A DNA stretch of 64,000 bases, taken from the NCBI GenBank assembly GCA_009921265.1, contig RFYV01000006.1:1-64000 (forward strand), in the 5' to 3' direction. The notes under the pieces were generated by a model, which saw only the letters and a list, made by a program, of their open reading frames with translations, was not told the DNA's origin and made no database searches. Source of the DNA: Betaproteobacteria bacterium. Lineage in GTDB: Bacteria; Pseudomonadota; Gammaproteobacteria; Burkholderiales; Burkholderiaceae_C. Positions within the stretch are counted from its first letter, which is position 1. Every line of letters starts with the position of its first letter. The position numbers and the translations under genes were made by a program. Below, piece by piece: positions 25,112-61,583 of this stretch.

Positions 25112-26572
25112 ATGATCTCACGCGAACCCACCATTGAGCGATTAGCCATTGCTCGCAAATTATTGCTCGACCCCTATGGACTCGATGAATCTCATTTAAC
25201 GCGCGCGCTCTTGCATATTCGAGCGAATCGAGTAGATGATGCTGATCTTTATTTTCAATACACCCGCTCCGAAGGTTGGAGCTTGGAGGAAGGCATCGTC
25301 AAAACCGGTTCATTCAGCATTGATCAAGGCGTAGGCGTTCGTGCCGTGAGCGGTGAAAAAACTGCTTTTGCCTATTCGGATGATATTTCTTGGGCCTCGT
25401 TAGAAGACGCAGCGAGCACAGTGCGAACGATTGCAAGTGCGGGCAATAACGCCAAGATCAAAATTCCGAGTCAAAAAATTGCTGCAAGTCGCAGTCTTTA
25501 TCTTGGAGACGATCCCATTGGCTCATTGGATAGTGCGGCCAAAGTTCAATTGCTTGAGCGAATCGAAAAACAAGCGCGCGCGCGTGACCCGCGTGTGGTT
25601 CAAGTGATGGCGGGTCTTGCCTCTGAATACGATGTCGTGATGGTTGCGCGTGCCGATGGCACATTAGCAGCCGATGTTCGTCCCTTGGTTCGCTTAAGCC
25701 TTACTGTGATTGCCGAACAAAAAGGTCGTCGCGAAGTAGGATCTGCAGGCGGCGGTGGACGTTTTGGATTGGCTTATTTTGACGCCGAATGCCTCATACG
25801 TTATGTCGAAGATGCCGTTGGTGCGGCACTCACCAATTTAGAAGCGCGACCCGCACCTGCAGGTGAAATGACGGTTGTTTTAGGCCCTGGTTGGCCTGGC
25901 GTTTTGTTGCACGAAGCGATTGGACATGGTCTAGAGGGCGATTTCAATCGCAAAGGATCTAGCGCATTTGCAGGCAAGATAGGGCAACGCGTTGCCGCCA
26001 AGGGAGTTACGATTTTAGATGATGGAACCATCAACGACCGCAGAGGATCTCTCAATGTAGATGATGAAGGATGTGCAACGCAGCGCAACGTCCTCATTGA
26101 AGACGGTATTTTGCAAGGCTACATACAAGATTCGATGAATGCGCGACTCATGGGCGTTAAGCCCACGGGCAACGGGCGTCGTGAGAGTTATGCCCATGTG
26201 CCAATGCCACGCATGACCAATACATATATGTTGAGTGGACAACAAACGCCCGAAGAAATTGTGGCTAGTATCAACAAAGGTTTGTACGCCACCAATTTTG
26301 GCGGCGGGCAAGTCGACATCACCTCAGGCAAATTTGTTTTTTCTGCCAGCCAAGCCTATTGGGTTGAAAAAGGGAAAATTCTGTATCCCGTGAAAGGCGC
26401 AACTTTGGTTGGAAACGGCCCTGATGTACTTACACGCGTCTCCATGATTGGCAACGACATGGCATTAGACAGTGGTGTTGGTACCTGCGGCAAAGAAGGA
26501 CAGAGTGTGCCTGTTGGAGTGGGGCAGCCCACCCTGCGCATTGATGGGATCACAGTGGGTGGAACCGCCTAA
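25112..26572 (+). CDS. tldD: TldD, metalloprotease subunit of TldD/TldE
   Basis: TldD with TldE (PmbA) forms a zinc protease that degrades unfolded peptides; it is known from maturation of microcin B17 and control of CcdA. The zinc-binding motif is seen in PGVLLHEAIGHGLEGDFNRKGSSAFAG (HExxxH at about residues 265-270), the hallmark separating TldD from TldE. Other conserved parts are DQGVGVRAVSGEKTAFAYSDDIS near the N-terminus and the C-terminal VGTCGKEGQSVPVGVGQPTLRID. The 486 residues are normal. A tldE/pmbA gene is not in the window. The gene ends just before the aroG attenuator. Confidence 0.94.
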   Translation: MISREPTIERLAIARKLLLDPYGLDESHLTRALLHIRANRVDDADLYFQYTRSEGWSLEEGIVKTGSFSIDQGVGVRAVSGEKTAFAYSDDISWASLEDAASTVRTIASAGNNAKIKIPSQKIAASRSLYLGDDPIGSLDSAAKVQLLERIEKQARARDPRVVQVMAGLASEYDVVMVARADGTLAADVRPLVRLSLTVIAEQKGRREVGSAGGGGRFGLAYFDAECLIRYVEDAVGAALTNLEARPAPAGEMTVVLGPGWPGVLLHEAIGHGLEGDFNRKGSSAFAGKIGQRVAAKGVTILDDGTINDRRGSLNVDDEGCATQRNVLIEDGILQGYIQDSMNARLMGVKPTGNGRRESYAHVPMPRMTNTYMLSGQQTPEEIVASINKGLYATNFGGGQVDITSGKFVFSASQAYWVEKGKILYPVKGATLVGNGPDVLTRVSMIGNDMALDSGVGTCGKEGQSVPVGVGQPTLRIDGITVGGTA

Positions 26573-26573
26573 T

Positions 26574-26602
26574 TTGTGTCTCCTCACAAGCTGTGATATA
26601 TT
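26574..26602 (+). promoter_or_regulatory. Promoter of the aroG leader
   Basis: TTGTGT (26574-26579) and TATATT (26597-26602) are spaced by exactly 17 bases. The expected transcription start would lie near 26608-26610, at or just before the ATG of the leader peptide. No Shine-Dalgarno sequence is visible before that ATG, so the leader may be translated from a leaderless transcript, unless transcription starts further upstream. Confidence 0.5.
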
Positions 26603-26609
26603 ATTTACT

Positions 26610-26678
26610 ATGTACTCAGCGCATTTTTATTTTGGTTACTTTAGCTTCTCACGCTTTCATGGCGGTAGAGAGATCTGA
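26610..26678 (+). CDS. Phe/Tyr-rich leader peptide of the aroG attenuator
   Basis: A 22-codon frame with its own stop lies between tldD and aroG. Eight residues are aromatic amino acids Phe (5) or Tyr (3), seven of them packed into HFYFGYFSFSRF; the eighth is Tyr2. This composition is what attenuation leader peptides for phenylalanine and tyrosine genes show (compare PheL). The last Phe codon is directly followed by codons for His-Gly-Gly that form the antiterminator strand. Starved ribosomes would stall on the Phe/Tyr codons and leave this strand free. The function as a sensor is inference; the reading frame, aromatic density and base pairing are read from the sequence. Confidence 0.8.
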   Translation: MYSAHFYFGYFSFSRFHGGREI

Positions 26679-26739
26679 ACGTACCTAAAAAAACGCTCTG
26701 AACTCCCCAACCAACCGCCAGACCAGGCGGTTTTTTTTT
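26660..26739 (+). terminator. Attenuator of aroG: antiterminator strand plus intrinsic terminator
   Basis: The terminator hairpin is AACCGCC (26713-26719), a six-base loop and GGCGGTT (26726-26732), followed by a run of seven more T. The 5' arm, ACCGCCA (26714-26720), is perfectly complementary to TGGCGGT (26660-26666), located inside the leader peptide right after its last Phe codon. The two pairings exclude each other. AGAG (26667-26670) and CTCT (26696-26699) could extend the antiterminator inward. A ribosome finishing at the stop codon 26676-26678 would cover TGGCGGT and favour termination; a ribosome stalled upstream would allow read-through into aroG. Confidence 0.82.
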
Positions 26740-26772
26740 ACCTCCTAAACGGCATTCACCCACGAGGTTCTC

Positions 26773-27894
26773 ATGAAATCAAGCATCACAGATTCCAAAT
26801 ATCACTCGCACGATGACAAGACAAGCGAGACAGACGATCAACGCATCAAGGACATCACCGTGCTTCCGCCACCCGAACATCTCATCCGTTTTTTCCCAAT
26901 TCAAGATACGGCCGTTGAGACTCTCATCACGCATACGCGCAAATCGATTCAAAAAATCATGCACAGCAAAGACGATCGATTGCTGGTTGTGATTGGCCCT
27001 TGTTCCATTCACGATCCTGTAGCTGCACTTGAATATGCGCGTCGCCTCATCGGTGAGCGCGAACGTTTTTCCGATACCTTAGAAATTGTGATGCGCGTCT
27101 ATTTTGAAAAGCCACGCACAACGGTTGGGTGGAAAGGTTTGATCAATGATCCCTATTTAGATGAGACCTATCGCATCGATGAAGGACTGCGCATTGCACG
27201 TCAATTGCTGATCGAAATCAATCGCGTGGGCTTGCCAGCAGGTTCAGAATTTTTAGACGTGATTTCTCCACAATACATTGGCGACCTCATCAGTTGGGGT
27301 GCGATTGGCGCGCGCACGACCGAGAGTCAAGTGCATCGCGAATTGGCGTCGGGTTTATCGGCGCCGATCGGTTTTAAAAATGGCACCGATGGCAATATTA
27401 AAATTGCAACCGATGCGATACAAGCCGCGGCAAGAGGACATCACTTTTTATCGGTACACAAAAATGGACAAGTTGCGATTGTGCAAACGCAGGGCAACAA
27501 AGATTGTCATGTGATTTTGCGCGGCGGTAAAGCGCCCAATTACGACGCGGCCAGCGTTAACGCTGCGTGTCAAGATTTGTTATCTGCCAAATTGCCTGCG
27601 CATTTGATGGTGGACTGCAGTCACGCCAATAGCAGCAAGCAACACGAAAAGCAATTTGAAGTGGCAAGCGATATTGCCAAGCAAATTGCTGGTGGATCGA
27701 ACCAAATATTTGGCGTGATGGTGGAGAGCCATCTCAAAGGTGGCGCACAAAAATTCACACCAAGCAAAGACAAAGTTGGCGCATTGGAATACGGCAAGAG
27801 CATCACAGATGCGTGCATCGATTGGGATACATCTGTAGGCTTGTTAAACGTTTTTTCAGAGGGTGTGAAAGCACGTCGTCAACGCAAAAAATAA
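26773..27894 (+). CDS. aroG: AroG-type 3-deoxy-7-phosphoheptulonate (DAHP) synthase, class I
   Basis: This enzyme condenses phosphoenolpyruvate with erythrose 4-phosphate in the first step of the shikimate pathway. Class I (AroF/G/H) motifs are visible: LLVVIGPCSIHDPVAALEYA, VMRVYFEKPRTTVGWKGLINDP, LPAGSEFLDVISPQYIGDLISWGAIGARTTESQ, GFKNGTDGN and MVDCSHANSSK. The 373 residues are a little longer than E. coli AroG (350) because of the N-terminal tail. Which aromatic amino acid inhibits it cannot be read safely, but the leader upstream senses Phe and Tyr codons. It converges with mpl. Confidence 0.94.
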   Translation: MKSSITDSKYHSHDDKTSETDDQRIKDITVLPPPEHLIRFFPIQDTAVETLITHTRKSIQKIMHSKDDRLLVVIGPCSIHDPVAALEYARRLIGERERFSDTLEIVMRVYFEKPRTTVGWKGLINDPYLDETYRIDEGLRIARQLLIEINRVGLPAGSEFLDVISPQYIGDLISWGAIGARTTESQVHRELASGLSAPIGFKNGTDGNIKIATDAIQAAARGHHFLSVHKNGQVAIVQTQGNKDCHVILRGGKAPNYDAASVNAACQDLLSAKLPAHLMVDCSHANSSKQHEKQFEVASDIAKQIAGGSNQIFGVMVESHLKGGAQKFTPSKDKVGALEYGKSITDACIDWDTSVGLLNVFSEGVKARRQRKK

Positions 27895-34928: not shown

Positions 34929-35378
34929 TCAGGGTCTGCTGGCTGTAGGAAATGGCCACGCTGCCTGAGGGTTGAGCGTGGTTTGTGCTACAGGTGCAGC
35001 ATGCAAGGGTGCAGTTGCCTTAACTACTGGTTTGTGAGCGACGGCCGGAGGTGCTGGCTTTTTTGCCACTGGTTTTTTTGCGGCCGGTTTGCTCGCTACT
35101 ACTTTTTTAGCCACTTTTTTAACTGGCTTTTTTGCTGCTGGTTTCTTCGCTGCTACTTTTTTGGCGGCTGGTTTTTTTGCAGTCACTTTTTTAACTGGCT
35201 TTTTTGCTGCTGGTTTTTTAGCAACTTTTTTAGCTGGTTTTTTTGCGACTGACTTTTTGACGACTTTCTTTGCTGCCGGTTTCTTAGTAGCTACTTTTTT
35301 GACGGCAGGCTTTTTCTTAGCTGCCACTTTTTTCTTTGCTGGGGCCTTTTTTGCGCCCGCTTTTTTTGCAGTTGCCAT
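34929..35378 (-). CDS. Histone H1-like Lys/Ala/Pro-rich DNA-binding protein
   Basis: This 149-residue protein is almost entirely KKPAAKK/KKVAKK repeats up to about residue 110, followed by a Pro/Val-rich tail ending LNPQAAWPFPTASRP. Similar basic, H1-like proteins occur in Burkholderiales, including Bordetella BpH1, and condense DNA non-specifically. No folded domain is visible. A clear ribosome site TAGGAG precedes ATG 35378. Upstream, 35415-35533 is strongly folded. The same type of repeat makes up the first 125 residues of DksA at 356. The reading frame is certain by start, stop and composition; the opposite-strand frames are composition shadows. Confidence 0.85.
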   Translation of the reverse strand: MATAKKAGAKKAPAKKKVAAKKKPAVKKVATKKPAAKKVVKKSVAKKPAKKVAKKPAAKKPVKKVTAKKPAAKKVAAKKPAAKKPVKKVAKKVVASKPAAKKPVAKKPAPPAVAHKPVVKATAPLHAAPVAQTTLNPQAAWPFPTASRP

Positions 35379-59271: not shown

Positions 59272-59451
59272 ATGTTCATGGATACAGCAAATAGCGTTCC
59301 AGCATGCTTCTATAAAGATCGTTGCAAAGCTTTGTATTTAAACATCAGCATTGAGGGGCTGGCACATCCATTGCTTAATCGATATATCTACGCTTCAAAA
59401 GCGTTTAAAATGAGTTCTAAAGAATTCAAAAAATGGAATAAACTGAAATGA
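59272..59451 (+). CDS. Possible small ORF overlapping the flhA start
   Basis: An open frame of 59 codons begins at ATG 59272 (second ATG 59278) and ends with a TGA overlapping the flhA ATG as ATGA. An internal ATG at 59410 gives a 13-codon version, MSSKEFKKWNKLK, lying downstream of the sigma-54 start site. The longer version would contain the sigma-54 element and would need another promoter. I recognise no family and see no good ribosome site. The exact four-base coupling to flhA is the only support for translation. Confidence 0.3.
   Translation: MFMDTANSVPACFYKDRCKALYLNISIEGLAHPLLNRYIYASKAFKMSSKEFKKWNKLK
59359..59375 (+). promoter_or_regulatory. Sigma-54 (RpoN) promoter of flhA
   Basis: CTGGCACATCCATTGCT (59359-59375) matches the sigma-54 consensus YTGGCACGNNNNTTGCW at nearly every defined position, with GG at 59361-59362 and GC at 59373-59374, exactly ten bases between. 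The expected start of transcription is near 59386, about 62 bases before flhA. Confidence 0.78.
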
Positions 59452-61583
59452 GCACACTGTCCCTGTCAACGATTCGACAGAATTTAGTTAAGTTTGACTA
59501 CTCCGGTCTGGGAATTCCCCTGCTGGTGTTGTTGATCATGGCTATGTTGGTGTTACCTTTGCCAGCCATTTTGCTGGACTTTTTGTTTACTTTTAATATT
59601 GTGGCCAGTCTTGTGATCATCATGATCGCTATTAGTAACCGCAATCCCTTGGATTTTTCTTCATTCCCCTCGGTTCTTTTGTTTGCAACGATGTTGCGCT
59701 TGGGTTTGAACGTGGCTTCCACACGGGTTATTTTGGTTCACGGTAATGAAGGTCATGAGGCTGCTGGAAAAGTGATTGCTGCTTTCGGTGAGTTTGTGAT
59801 CGGCGGCAACTACGTTGTGGGTTTCATTATTTTTGGTATCCTGATGATTATTAACTTTATTGTGGTCACCAAAGGTGCAGGACGCGTATCTGAAGTGAAT
59901 GCGCGTTTTACATTGGATGCAATGCCTGGTAAACAAATGGCGATTGATGCTGATTTGAATGCAGGCGTGATCGATCAAGCAACGGCTAAAAAACGTCGCC
60001 AAGAATTATCACAAGAGTCTGATTTCTTCGGATCCATGGATGGTGCTTCTAAATTTGTAAGCGGCGATGCTGTTGCTGGCTTATTGATTCTTCTTATTAA
60101 CCTTATCGGTGGTTTGGCCATTGGTGTATTGCAACACAATATGTCTGTGAGCGAAGCGAGTAAGTTGTACGTACTATTAACCATTGGTGACGGTTTGGTT
60201 GCTCAAATTCCATCTTTGTTATTGTCCTTGGCAACCGCCATTATTGTGACGCGTGTCACAACGACACAATCAATGACTGAACAGGCCCAATCACAGTTGT
60301 CTAATCCAGTTGCATTATTTATTTCTGGTGGCATTTTATTATTATTAGGCTTGGTTCCTGGAATGCCACACACCATGTTTATTACATTAGCCGCAGCCAC
60401 TATTGGCTTGGGCTTAATGGTCATTCGAAGTGAAGTGGTGGAAGAGGCGACACAAGAGGCTGCTGCACAAGCTGCAGCAAGCAGCGAAGGACCCAAAGAA
60501 CTGGATTGGGATGACGTCGATCAGGTTGATTTGATCGGTCTTGAAATTGGTTATGGTTTGATTCCTTTGGTCAATGCTGAAACTGGCGGTGAATTGATGA
60601 ACCGTGTCAAAGGTGTGCGTAAAAAATTAACAGCTGAATTGGGCTTTCTTGTTCAGCCTGTTCGCATTCGCGATGATTTAAATATCGATCCTGACTCCTA
60701 CAACATTGTTTTAAAAGGTGTTGTGCGCGGCAAAGGTGAAGTCAAAGTGGGTCGTGAATTAGCGATTAACCCAGGACACGTCTATGGTGAATTGCCTGGT
60801 ACGCCCACTAAAGAGCCTGCATTTGGTTTGGATGCTGTTTGGATTGAGCCTTCACAACGCGATCAAGCGCGTACATTGGGTTACACAGTGGTGGATGCCA
60901 GCACAGCGATTGCCACACATTTGAATAAAGTATTGCGTGAAAACGCATCTGATTTGCTCAAAGTATTGCGTGAAAACGCATCTGATTTGCTCAGTCAAGA
61001 TGAAGTTCAACAATTGTTGGATAAATTAGCGGCTAAATCACCTAAGTTGGTGGAAGACATGGTGCCAAGCAAAGTGAGCTTGGGAACATTGACCCGTGTA
61101 TTGCAAAACCTGTTGATTGAAGGCGTATCGATTCGCGATATGCGCAGTATTGCAGAAACACTCACTGATGCAAGCTCCAAGAGTACCGATCCAGAACAAT
61201 TAACAGCGTCTGTCAGGCCTAAATTAGGTCGCATGATCATGCAAAGTTTGGTAGATGAACAAAACAACTTATCAGTGATGACGCTCGACCCCAGTTTGGA
61301 GCAGTTGCTTCACAATGTGTTGCAACAAAGTCAGCCTGGTCAGCCCGTTGTTCTGGAGCCTGGATTGGCTGAAAACTTATTTGCAGCATTGCGTCAATCT
61401 GCTCGCTCCATGGAAGATGATGGCATGGCCGCTGTTTTGGTGGTTTCACCATTGATTCGCGGTTGGTTGTCGAAAGCAGTTAAATATCGCGTGAGTGATT
61501 TAACGGTCTTGTCATACAGCGAAATTCCAGATGACCAGTCTGTCAAAGTCGTTCAAACGGTTGACGCCAAAAACACACAGTAA
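59448..61583 (+). CDS. flhA: FlhA, flagellar type III export gate protein
   Basis: FlhA is the nonameric export gate of the flagellar secretion system. The N-terminal half has about eight membrane spans and the FHIPEP-type block PSVLLFATMLRLGLNVASTRVIL and GAGRVSEVNARFTLDAMPGKQMAIDADLNAGVID. The cytoplasmic half includes GLEIGYGLIPLVNAETGGELMNRVKGVRKKLTAELGFLVQPVRIRDDL and VDASTAIATHLNK. At residues 494-515 the 11-residue unit KVLRENASDLL occurs twice in a row, encoded by an exact 33-base duplication; family members have it once. Length 711, slightly long. flhF follows after 37 bases. Confidence 0.95.
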   Translation: MSTLSLSTIRQNLVKFDYSGLGIPLLVLLIMAMLVLPLPAILLDFLFTFNIVASLVIIMIAISNRNPLDFSSFPSVLLFATMLRLGLNVASTRVILVHGNEGHEAAGKVIAAFGEFVIGGNYVVGFIIFGILMIINFIVVTKGAGRVSEVNARFTLDAMPGKQMAIDADLNAGVIDQATAKKRRQELSQESDFFGSMDGASKFVSGDAVAGLLILLINLIGGLAIGVLQHNMSVSEASKLYVLLTIGDGLVAQIPSLLLSLATAIIVTRVTTTQSMTEQAQSQLSNPVALFISGGILLLLGLVPGMPHTMFITLAAATIGLGLMVIRSEVVEEATQEAAAQAAASSEGPKELDWDDVDQVDLIGLEIGYGLIPLVNAETGGELMNRVKGVRKKLTAELGFLVQPVRIRDDLNIDPDSYNIVLKGVVRGKGEVKVGRELAINPGHVYGELPGTPTKEPAFGLDAVWIEPSQRDQARTLGYTVVDASTAIATHLNKVLRENASDLLKVLRENASDLLSQDEVQQLLDKLAAKSPKLVEDMVPSKVSLGTLTRVLQNLLIEGVSIRDMRSIAETLTDASSKSTDPEQLTASVRPKLGRMIMQSLVDEQNNLSVMTLDPSLEQLLHNVLQQSQPGQPVVLEPGLAENLFAALRQSARSMEDDGMAAVLVVSPLIRGWLSKAVKYRVSDLTVLSYSEIPDDQSVKVVQTVDAKNTQ
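60927..60992 (+). repeat. Exact 33-bp tandem duplication inside flhA
   Basis: The 33 bases at 60927-60959 are repeated without a single difference at 60960-60992. The unit starts AAAGTATTGCGTGAAAACGC and ends GATTTGCTC. Being a multiple of three, it preserves the reading frame and adds 11 residues to the cytoplasmic domain. Absence of any synonymous change suggests a recent event, or an artefact. Confidence 0.95.

Follow-up and report, generated by a model that had tools for sequence, protein, structure and literature searches.

We report that in the window, by which we mean the whole 64-kb stretch of DNA that was analysed, a tldD gene is followed on the same strand by aroG, and that the interval between the two genes holds a short reading frame rich in aromatic codons, two alternative RNA pairings and an intrinsic terminator. 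The features are as follows, in window coordinates:

25112..26572, plus strand: tldD, the upstream gene (NF008006 TldD, 659.5 bits against a cut-off of 513)
26592..26602, plus strand: extended -10 element TGTGATATATT, with the hexamer TATATT at 26597-26602, the end of which is 7 nt 5' of the leader ATG
26608..26610, plus strand: predicted transcription start, at or adjoining the leader ATG, judged from the -10 spacing
26610..26678, plus strand: leader peptide frame MYSAHFYFGYFSFSRFHGGREI, including the stop, with the decisive codons at about 6-13 (26625-26648)
26646..26672, plus strand: hairpin 1:2 (TTCTC/GAGAG plus CGCT/GGCG), from folding, with changes on both sides at 3 of 8 pairs when 28 leaders were aligned
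26660..26666, plus strand: region 2, TGGCGGT, the 5' side of the antiterminator (sequence, folding and leader comparison)
26670..26705, plus strand: inner antiterminator helix, 26670-26682 paired to 26693-26705, with changes on both sides at 4 of 10 pairs
26713..26739, plus strand: intrinsic terminator (stem 26713-26719/26726-26732, then a T run; terminator scan and folding)
26714..26720, plus strand: region 3, ACCGCCA, common to antiterminator and terminator (sequence, folding and leader comparison)
26764..26767, plus strand: likely Shine-Dalgarno sequence GAGG of aroG, by eye
26773..27894, plus strand: aroG-type class I 3-deoxy-7-phosphoheptulonate (DAHP) synthase (TIGR00034, 531.6 bits against a cut-off of 173.2)

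The aroG product also scores 542 bits with NF006723 (AroG), which is under the cut-off of that model (568). The leader ATG (26610) is located 37 nt after the tldD stop and the frame ends with TGA at 26676-26678; it has 22 codons, five for Phe and three for Tyr, in keeping with the first-pass annotation, a reading of the DNA sequence by itself. The same annotation had placed a strong terminator just before aroG, and this was confirmed: a 7-bp stem (26713-26732) with the loop AGACCA and a T run to 26739, 33 nt from aroG, which folded alone has an energy of -11.7 kcal/mol that was equalled by one of 200 shuffled sequences. The seven-base complementarity to the 5' arm of the terminator that it had pointed out is exact, TGGCGGT at 26660-26666 being the reverse complement of ACCGCCA at 26714-26720, and the position given for TGGCGGT, right after the last Phe codon, is true within 3 nt since its first base is the last base of the CAT codon that follows that Phe codon.

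According to the folding, region 3 can pair with either region 2 or region 4, so that antiterminator and terminator are mutually exclusive. The 2:3 antiterminator folded alone has an energy of -13.6 kcal/mol (3 of 200 shuffles equally good), and hairpin 1:2, at -10.2 kcal/mol (z -1.25; 22 of 200 shuffles equally good), is weak by itself. Among the 464 ATG frames of 15-30 codons in the window the leader is the sole one with at least 35% Phe, Tyr and Trp codons, and with an aromatic background of 7.4%, as calculated from 23 long frames in the window, the probability of at least eight aromatic residues among 21 codons is 7.6e-5. A stricter terminator scan of the window gave four hits at three sites, of which the aroG leader alone is associated with an aromatic-rich frame and alone has the 7-nt match to a region 2. 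The arrangement in front of aroG is not a product of chance.

The genome to which the window belongs is 3.56 Mb and 95.8% complete. Its relatives were examined at several levels. In the same-genus sample 34 genomes had an aroG match and 30 loci were taken, one of which (L021) has no upstream DNA; at the other 29 the leader frame, region 2 and the terminator are present without exception. A covariance model (R1) made from 28 same-genus leaders gave matches at E 0.01 in 41 of the 399 genomes sampled from the order, and all 30 of the matched genomes that were taken contain aroG. A second model (R2), made from 50 leaders, 29 of whose loci came from the R1 search, gave 102 matches at E 0.05 in 101 of the 399 genomes, covering 56 of 159 genera, and 101 of these matches are positioned upstream of aroG on the same strand, at about 150 nt or less as judged from extrapolated gene starts. 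Thus the element is found in about a quarter of the sampled genomes of the order, nearly always at aroG. The weakest R2 match (L157; E 0.04), which is partial, lacks aroG and was taken as a chance match. In a class-wide draw of 274 genomes six matched: three are from the same family, two (L066, L067) are from another family and have aroG downstream, and L068 (E 0.005), where aroG is missing, was likewise taken as chance.

Of the named aroG loci (the best 80 of at least 589 candidates) 64 carry the element, and the idea in the first-pass annotation that homologous aroG leaders would hold the peptide thus stands both there and in the genus. The carriers include Limnohabitans, Polaromonas, Variovorax, Acidovorax, Hydrogenophaga and Rubrivivax, further Caballeronia, Paraburkholderia, Cupriavidus lacunae, Massilia and Janthinobacterium, and beyond the order Dyella and Xanthomonas. 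The 16 named loci with no covariance model match belong, among others, to Polynucleobacter, Thauera, Azoarcus, Rhodocyclus, Accumulibacter, Methylotenera, Thioalkalivibrio and two Cupriavidus copies; they also include L173, which is truncated, and L231, where a leader (MRVSQSFYFWHF...) and a terminator before aroG can be seen by eye and were missed by the model, so that its negatives, as well as the prevalence figures, are lower bounds. Among genomes of the order from other genera, 20 had aroG; at the level of the covariance model 7 of these have the element and 13 do not. Second aroG copies within the genus (L091, L092) gave no match in their upstream slices. In L054, L063, L095 and L097 a second aroG-like gene is located directly 3' of the attenuated aroG, and one leader may therefore control two DAHP synthases. 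At the Undibacterium locus L236 (860-1500), one of the 64 named carriers, the leader and terminator are intact and are followed by about 450 nt of other sequence before aroG.

For the comparison of leaders, 237 loci were reduced to 191 with a terminator-like stem, 171 with a complement of at least 6 nt, 165 that passed the anchors and 159 that are distinct (27 same-genus, 52 named and 80 others); in some of the 171 the longest complement is an A/T or a GGTTCT stretch instead of GGCGG. In addition 28 same-genus leaders were aligned using MAFFT. In this alignment the structure with hairpin 1:2 and the terminator has 91.8% standard pairs compared to 85.5% in shuffles, and 21 cells changed on both sides compared to 6.0. 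The corresponding values for the antiterminator are 85.4% versus 81.2% and 26 versus 10.5 cells, but two of its five measures do not exceed the shuffles, since pairs with changes on both sides (5 versus 5.1) and further pair types (16 versus 16.2) show no excess. MAFFT seemingly shifts L022, L023, L029 and L030 by one column at region 2, and the helix 1 figures therefore understate the pairing; the anchor-based count with 159 leaders is free of this shift.

In the anchor-based count the five core pairs (GGCGG/CCGCC) are paired in 89-100% of the leaders and are nearly invariant, and the core of the 2:3 helix consequently says little by covariation. The -1 flanking pair is paired in 81%, mostly as C-G (60) or T-A (58), compared to 60% in shuffles, with none of 2000 reaching the observed value; for the -3 pair the values are 42% and 31% (2 of 2000) and for the -2 pair 67% and 63% (48 of 2000), and at positions -4, +5, +6 and +7 the pairing is not above that in the shuffles. 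These shuffle tests ignore phylogeny and for that reason changes were also counted on a tree of 155 aroG proteins, where the signal is weaker: the -1 pair shows five both-sided and three one-sided changes from pair to pair, 17 losses and eight gains, core offset 2 six one-sided changes, all to U-G, with no loss, and the first core pair (offset 0) four losses and two gains. The compensatory changes in TGGCGGT/ACCGCCA that the first-pass annotation had looked to are accordingly present in part: pairing is kept, but the five-base core is near invariant and the changes are modest and located at the edges and in the inner helix. Taken together, covariation modestly supports the 2:3 pairing. The locus L002 (aroG 95% identical) differs from the window by a C-to-T change in region 3 and a matching G-to-A change in region 4 (ACCGTC/GACGGT), which keeps the terminator and gives the antiterminator a G-U pair and would thus be a recent coordinated change.

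The positions of the aromatic codons were compared to the expected geometry of a ribosome on the leader. With codon offsets aligned on region 2 and binned to 3 nt, the fraction of Phe, Tyr and Trp codons at A-site positions -36 to -15 in the 159 leaders is 0.63, 0.76, 0.83, 0.64, 0.77, 0.82, 0.60 and 0.69; it falls to 0.24 at -12 and lies between 0 and 0.05 throughout the stretch -9 to +12. Aromatic codons make up 20 of the 1376 codons located at -9 or beyond (1.5%), with a small Tyr bump at +21 (0.10 of 42). The height of the peak arises partly by construction since the leader caller favours aromatic-rich frames, and it is sometimes wrong (L024). When folding was done with a ribosome assumed to cover up to 13 nt past the first base of the A-site codon, the mean probability of the antiterminator rose from 0.74 (A site at -48) to 0.98 (-15) and then dropped to 0.45 (-12), the zero from -9 on being imposed by definition once the footprint covers region 2. 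For the leader in the window the values are 0.99-1.00 at -39 to -15 and 0.05 at -12. The aromatic-codon profile and the antiterminator profile hence stop at the same place, and the model predicts that stalls up to -15 would free the antiterminator and that later ones would block it; the Phe at codon 16 of the window's leader is outside the predicted stall window. In the folding with no ribosome the mean probability is 0.50, so that a leader that is not translated would not be clearly switched off. The abrupt stop of the aromatic codons at 12-15 nt 5' of region 2 may act as a natural ruler for the leading edge of the ribosome.

Within -37 to -12 all 159 leaders have Phe codons, 141 have Tyr and 80 have Trp codons, the latter mainly at -18 (34 of 159) and -15 (17 of 159), and the window's own leader has no Trp codons. 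Where the decisive positions of a relative's leader include Trp codons, the device would read Trp too, and the leaders of some relatives probably sense Trp.

The first-pass annotation had also noted a promoter-like pair. A pair scan of 26400-27000 revealed no sigma-70 pair promoter, and what stands of that claim is the extended -10 TGTGATATATT, which is conserved but has a poor -35. Among the 28 same-genus leaders the -10 ends 7 nt before the ATG in 22 and 6 nt in four, and in the other two it is 1 nt before the first ATG and 7 nt before an in-frame ATG two codons further on; L005 was not placed by the script. In the larger set of 159 leaders 86 have an extended -10 (TGnTAnnnT) no more than 40 nt before the ATG, 74 of these at 6-8 nt, compared to 39 of 3180 control windows farther upstream. 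A start about 7 nt after the -10 would let transcription begin at or adjoining the leader ATG. No Shine-Dalgarno sequence precedes the leader ATG in the window, and an SD-like 4-mer was found 5' of the leader ATG in 5 of 159 leaders; the frequency at aroG itself (27 of 159) is unusable as a control because the aroG starts are extrapolated. The -10 spacing together with the missing Shine-Dalgarno suggests that the leader frame is leaderless, i.e. read from a 5'-terminal AUG, and we infer both the transcription start and the leaderless translation in this way. The motif is lacking in 73 of the 159 leaders, so a leaderless start is not general. In passages of the respective papers leaderless transcripts are described for B. 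cenocepacia (PMC4603805), and the S. meliloti rnTrpL RNA is described as beginning at its leader ATG (PMC7298713). The view that all parts of a classical attenuator are present thus holds for the leader frame, antiterminator and terminator, with the qualification that the promoter comprises only the extended -10 and that the leader has no Shine-Dalgarno. The seeming translation with no Shine-Dalgarno would make the leader a natural system to study leaderless initiation coupled to transcription.

Judged by all features that could be tested here, the aroG leader looks like a classical ribosome-mediated attenuator. Its parts were observed and are conserved, they are linked almost exclusively to aroG, and the codon positions agree with the folding; we consider it very probable that a ribosome-mediated leader-peptide transcription attenuator controls aroG, which encodes the enzyme at the entry to the shikimate pathway. 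From the extended -10 RNA polymerase would begin at or adjoining the leader ATG, and a ribosome would start on the leader peptide. When charged tRNA-Phe or tRNA-Tyr is short the ribosome would stall over codons 6-13 and cover the 5' arm of hairpin 1:2, so that region 2 (GGCGGU) would remain available for pairing with region 3 (ACCGCC); the terminator would then be unable to form and aroG would be transcribed. When the amino acids are plentiful the ribosome would reach the stop codon and cover region 2, region 3 would pair with region 4 and transcription would end at the T run. With no stalled ribosome hairpin 1:2 would hide region 2. The amino acid response of the leader is likewise something that we infer.

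Other explanations of the same parts were considered. A terminator between two genes on the same strand is of a usual form, and the hairpin might be a mere tldD terminator or a fixed roadblock, with aroG transcribed from its own promoter and the aromatic frame being incidental. However, just 33 nt separate the T run from aroG, and the promoter scan found none there; moreover, the aromatic frame, region 2 and the terminator recur before aroG under different upstream genes (the end of groEL in L067 and a tRNA in L069; by eye), all parts are present at every same-genus locus that has upstream DNA, and the spacing between region 2 and region 3 stays within 43-59 nt in the parsed loci, which together make this reading very unlikely. 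Even less probable is that the product of the leader is a small protein that has a function of its own and that the RNA pairing is secondary. The recurrence of a C-terminal GGREI/GGREV within the genus speaks for such a protein, but relative to the leader frame the GGCGG region is found in each of the three phases (82, 54 and 23 of 159), giving peptides such as GGRE, AVGR and LAEE, which indicates that it is the RNA and not the peptide that is conserved; in addition the leader stop ranges from -4 to +32, and 11 of the 159 frames end at or before region 2.

We give an equally slight chance to a metabolite-binding riboswitch or a protein-bound RNA working on the same terminator. There are conserved RNA segments outside the frame (the inner helix), as such a reading would have it, but no Rfam family reached its gathering score in the window or at the element in 20 related loci, the conserved structure found comprises three alternative hairpins only, and the codon map fits the geometry of a ribosome. 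In these 20 loci SRP RNA, located away from the element, was the sole Rfam family, and two sub-threshold hits (E 0.17 and 0.49) are to a microRNA and a lncRNA family. An addition to the cis role, rather than a replacement of it, would be that the terminated leader acts in trans as a leaderless mini-mRNA or small RNA by analogy to S. meliloti rnTrpL/peTrpL (as presented in parts of PMC7298713). The predicted 5'-AUG start and this precedent favour the idea and nothing beyond anatomy speaks for it; we regard it as unlikely, if less so than the readings above. The attenuator remains our preferred reading in what follows.

In E. coli aroG is under the control of TyrR, and the first-pass annotation took the leader to be a different regulatory solution. 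This fits the present genome, where the TyrR HTH (TIGR04381) was not found, and the order, where it was above the cut-off in 1 of 150 genomes (the E. coli control was positive in both searches); but it was also absent from all 94 genomes of the class draw, and its absence is therefore not special to the order. According to sections of PMC5343134, TyrR and TrpR are conserved across many groups of gammaproteobacteria, whereas other classes lack them. In the window's genome one copy of an aroG-type synthase was found (95.8% completeness) and no type II DAHP synthase (PF01474). The pheA and trpE loci of the same genome have no terminator with at least seven pairs and five T, which leaves the aroG leader as the sole control of this type found on these loci; a gyrA-like frame ends 16 nt 5' of pheA and a tyrA-like frame follows it (both by eye).

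The pheA and pheST attenuators of gammaproteobacteria have a short Phe-rich leader, alternative antiterminator and terminator structures and an intrinsic terminator before the gene. The aroG leader shares all of these; unlike them it targets the DAHP synthase at the pathway entry and not the Phe branch or a tRNA synthetase, the aroG leaders have Tyr and often Trp codons, and it has no Rfam match and a predicted leaderless start. The pheA attenuator is named in passages of PMC5343134 and the pheST attenuator in passages of PMC1262725. As far as parts of PMC7298713 describe it, the S. meliloti trpLE(G) system with rnTrpL/peTrpL also combines a leader RNA starting at the leader AUG (predicted in our case) with ribosome-mediated attenuation, but there a Trp leader precedes trpE(G) in an alphaproteobacterium whereas here an aromatic leader precedes aroG. 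The uORFC-13-1 motif of Acholeplasma aroF, which is predicted only, resembles it in having an upstream frame with Phe codons, a terminator and a DAHP synthase gene, and differs in that it comprises 24 sequences from Acholeplasma and environmental DNA and has an RBS (portions of PMC8632094); Burkholderia, Ralstonia, Neisseria and Xanthomonas do not occur in the main text of that paper. Two upstream frames of shikimate genes with Phe and Tyr codons are presented in Fig. 6b of PMC6429828, and as far as the relevant parts of that source go they come from five genomes with no betaproteobacterium among them. The putative attenuators tabulated in parts of PMC1173090 are associated with tyrA, among them those of Vibrio aroA-tyrA and of a Bordetella gyrA-serC-pheA-tyrA cluster, and in those parts none of the tabulated attenuators is before a Burkholderiales aroG. 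The main text of PMC2965389 does not mention aroG, and in the literature covered, mainly open-licence, we found no earlier description of attenuation at aroG for these bacteria. With E. coli TyrR and TrpR control (regulons in sections of PMC5343134) the leader has in common that aromatic amino acids feed back on the expression of DAHP synthase; there the regulators are DNA-binding proteins, here the device is RNA, in an order where, as noted, the TyrR HTH is rare.

What stands out is the combination of the first committed step with mixed Phe, Tyr and often Trp codons in an element that lacks an Rfam match. Tentatively, and with somewhat less than even confidence, we suggest that a leaderless attenuator sensing all three aromatic amino acids might be the ancestral DAHP synthase switch in much of Burkholderiales and in gammaproteobacteria of the Xanthomonas-Dyella type, and that it was narrowed to Phe and Tyr in the window's species. 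If true, a single RNA leader performs the task for which E. coli uses TyrR, TrpR and three isozymes. The attenuator also gives a testable answer to how an order in which nearly all sampled genomes lack TyrR could tune the entry to the shikimate pathway.

Finally, some minor observations concern the surroundings of the leader and the rest of the window. In L003, L004, L006 and L017 the stretch TTGTCA(G/T)CAAACTGCCAGA, an imperfect inverted repeat, is found about 25-45 nt before the leader ATG, and a similar stretch is present in Limnohabitans L170; it may be an operator for some regulator. Directly 3' of the terminator the five bases ACCTC (within 26740-26745) are complementary to GAGGT, located at the likely Shine-Dalgarno sequence of aroG (within 26764-26769), as is also the case in L002, and this might constitute a weak second layer of control, on translation. 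Elsewhere a frame of 149 aa on the minus strand (34929-35378), rich in Ala, Lys and Pro and with KKPAAKK repeats, overlaps a tandem repeat array at 35123-35275 and resembles bacterial histone H1-like proteins. At 60927-60993 a perfect 33-bp tandem duplication, a multiple of three, is present within a gene of the FHIPEP family (FlhA-type; 59448-61583).
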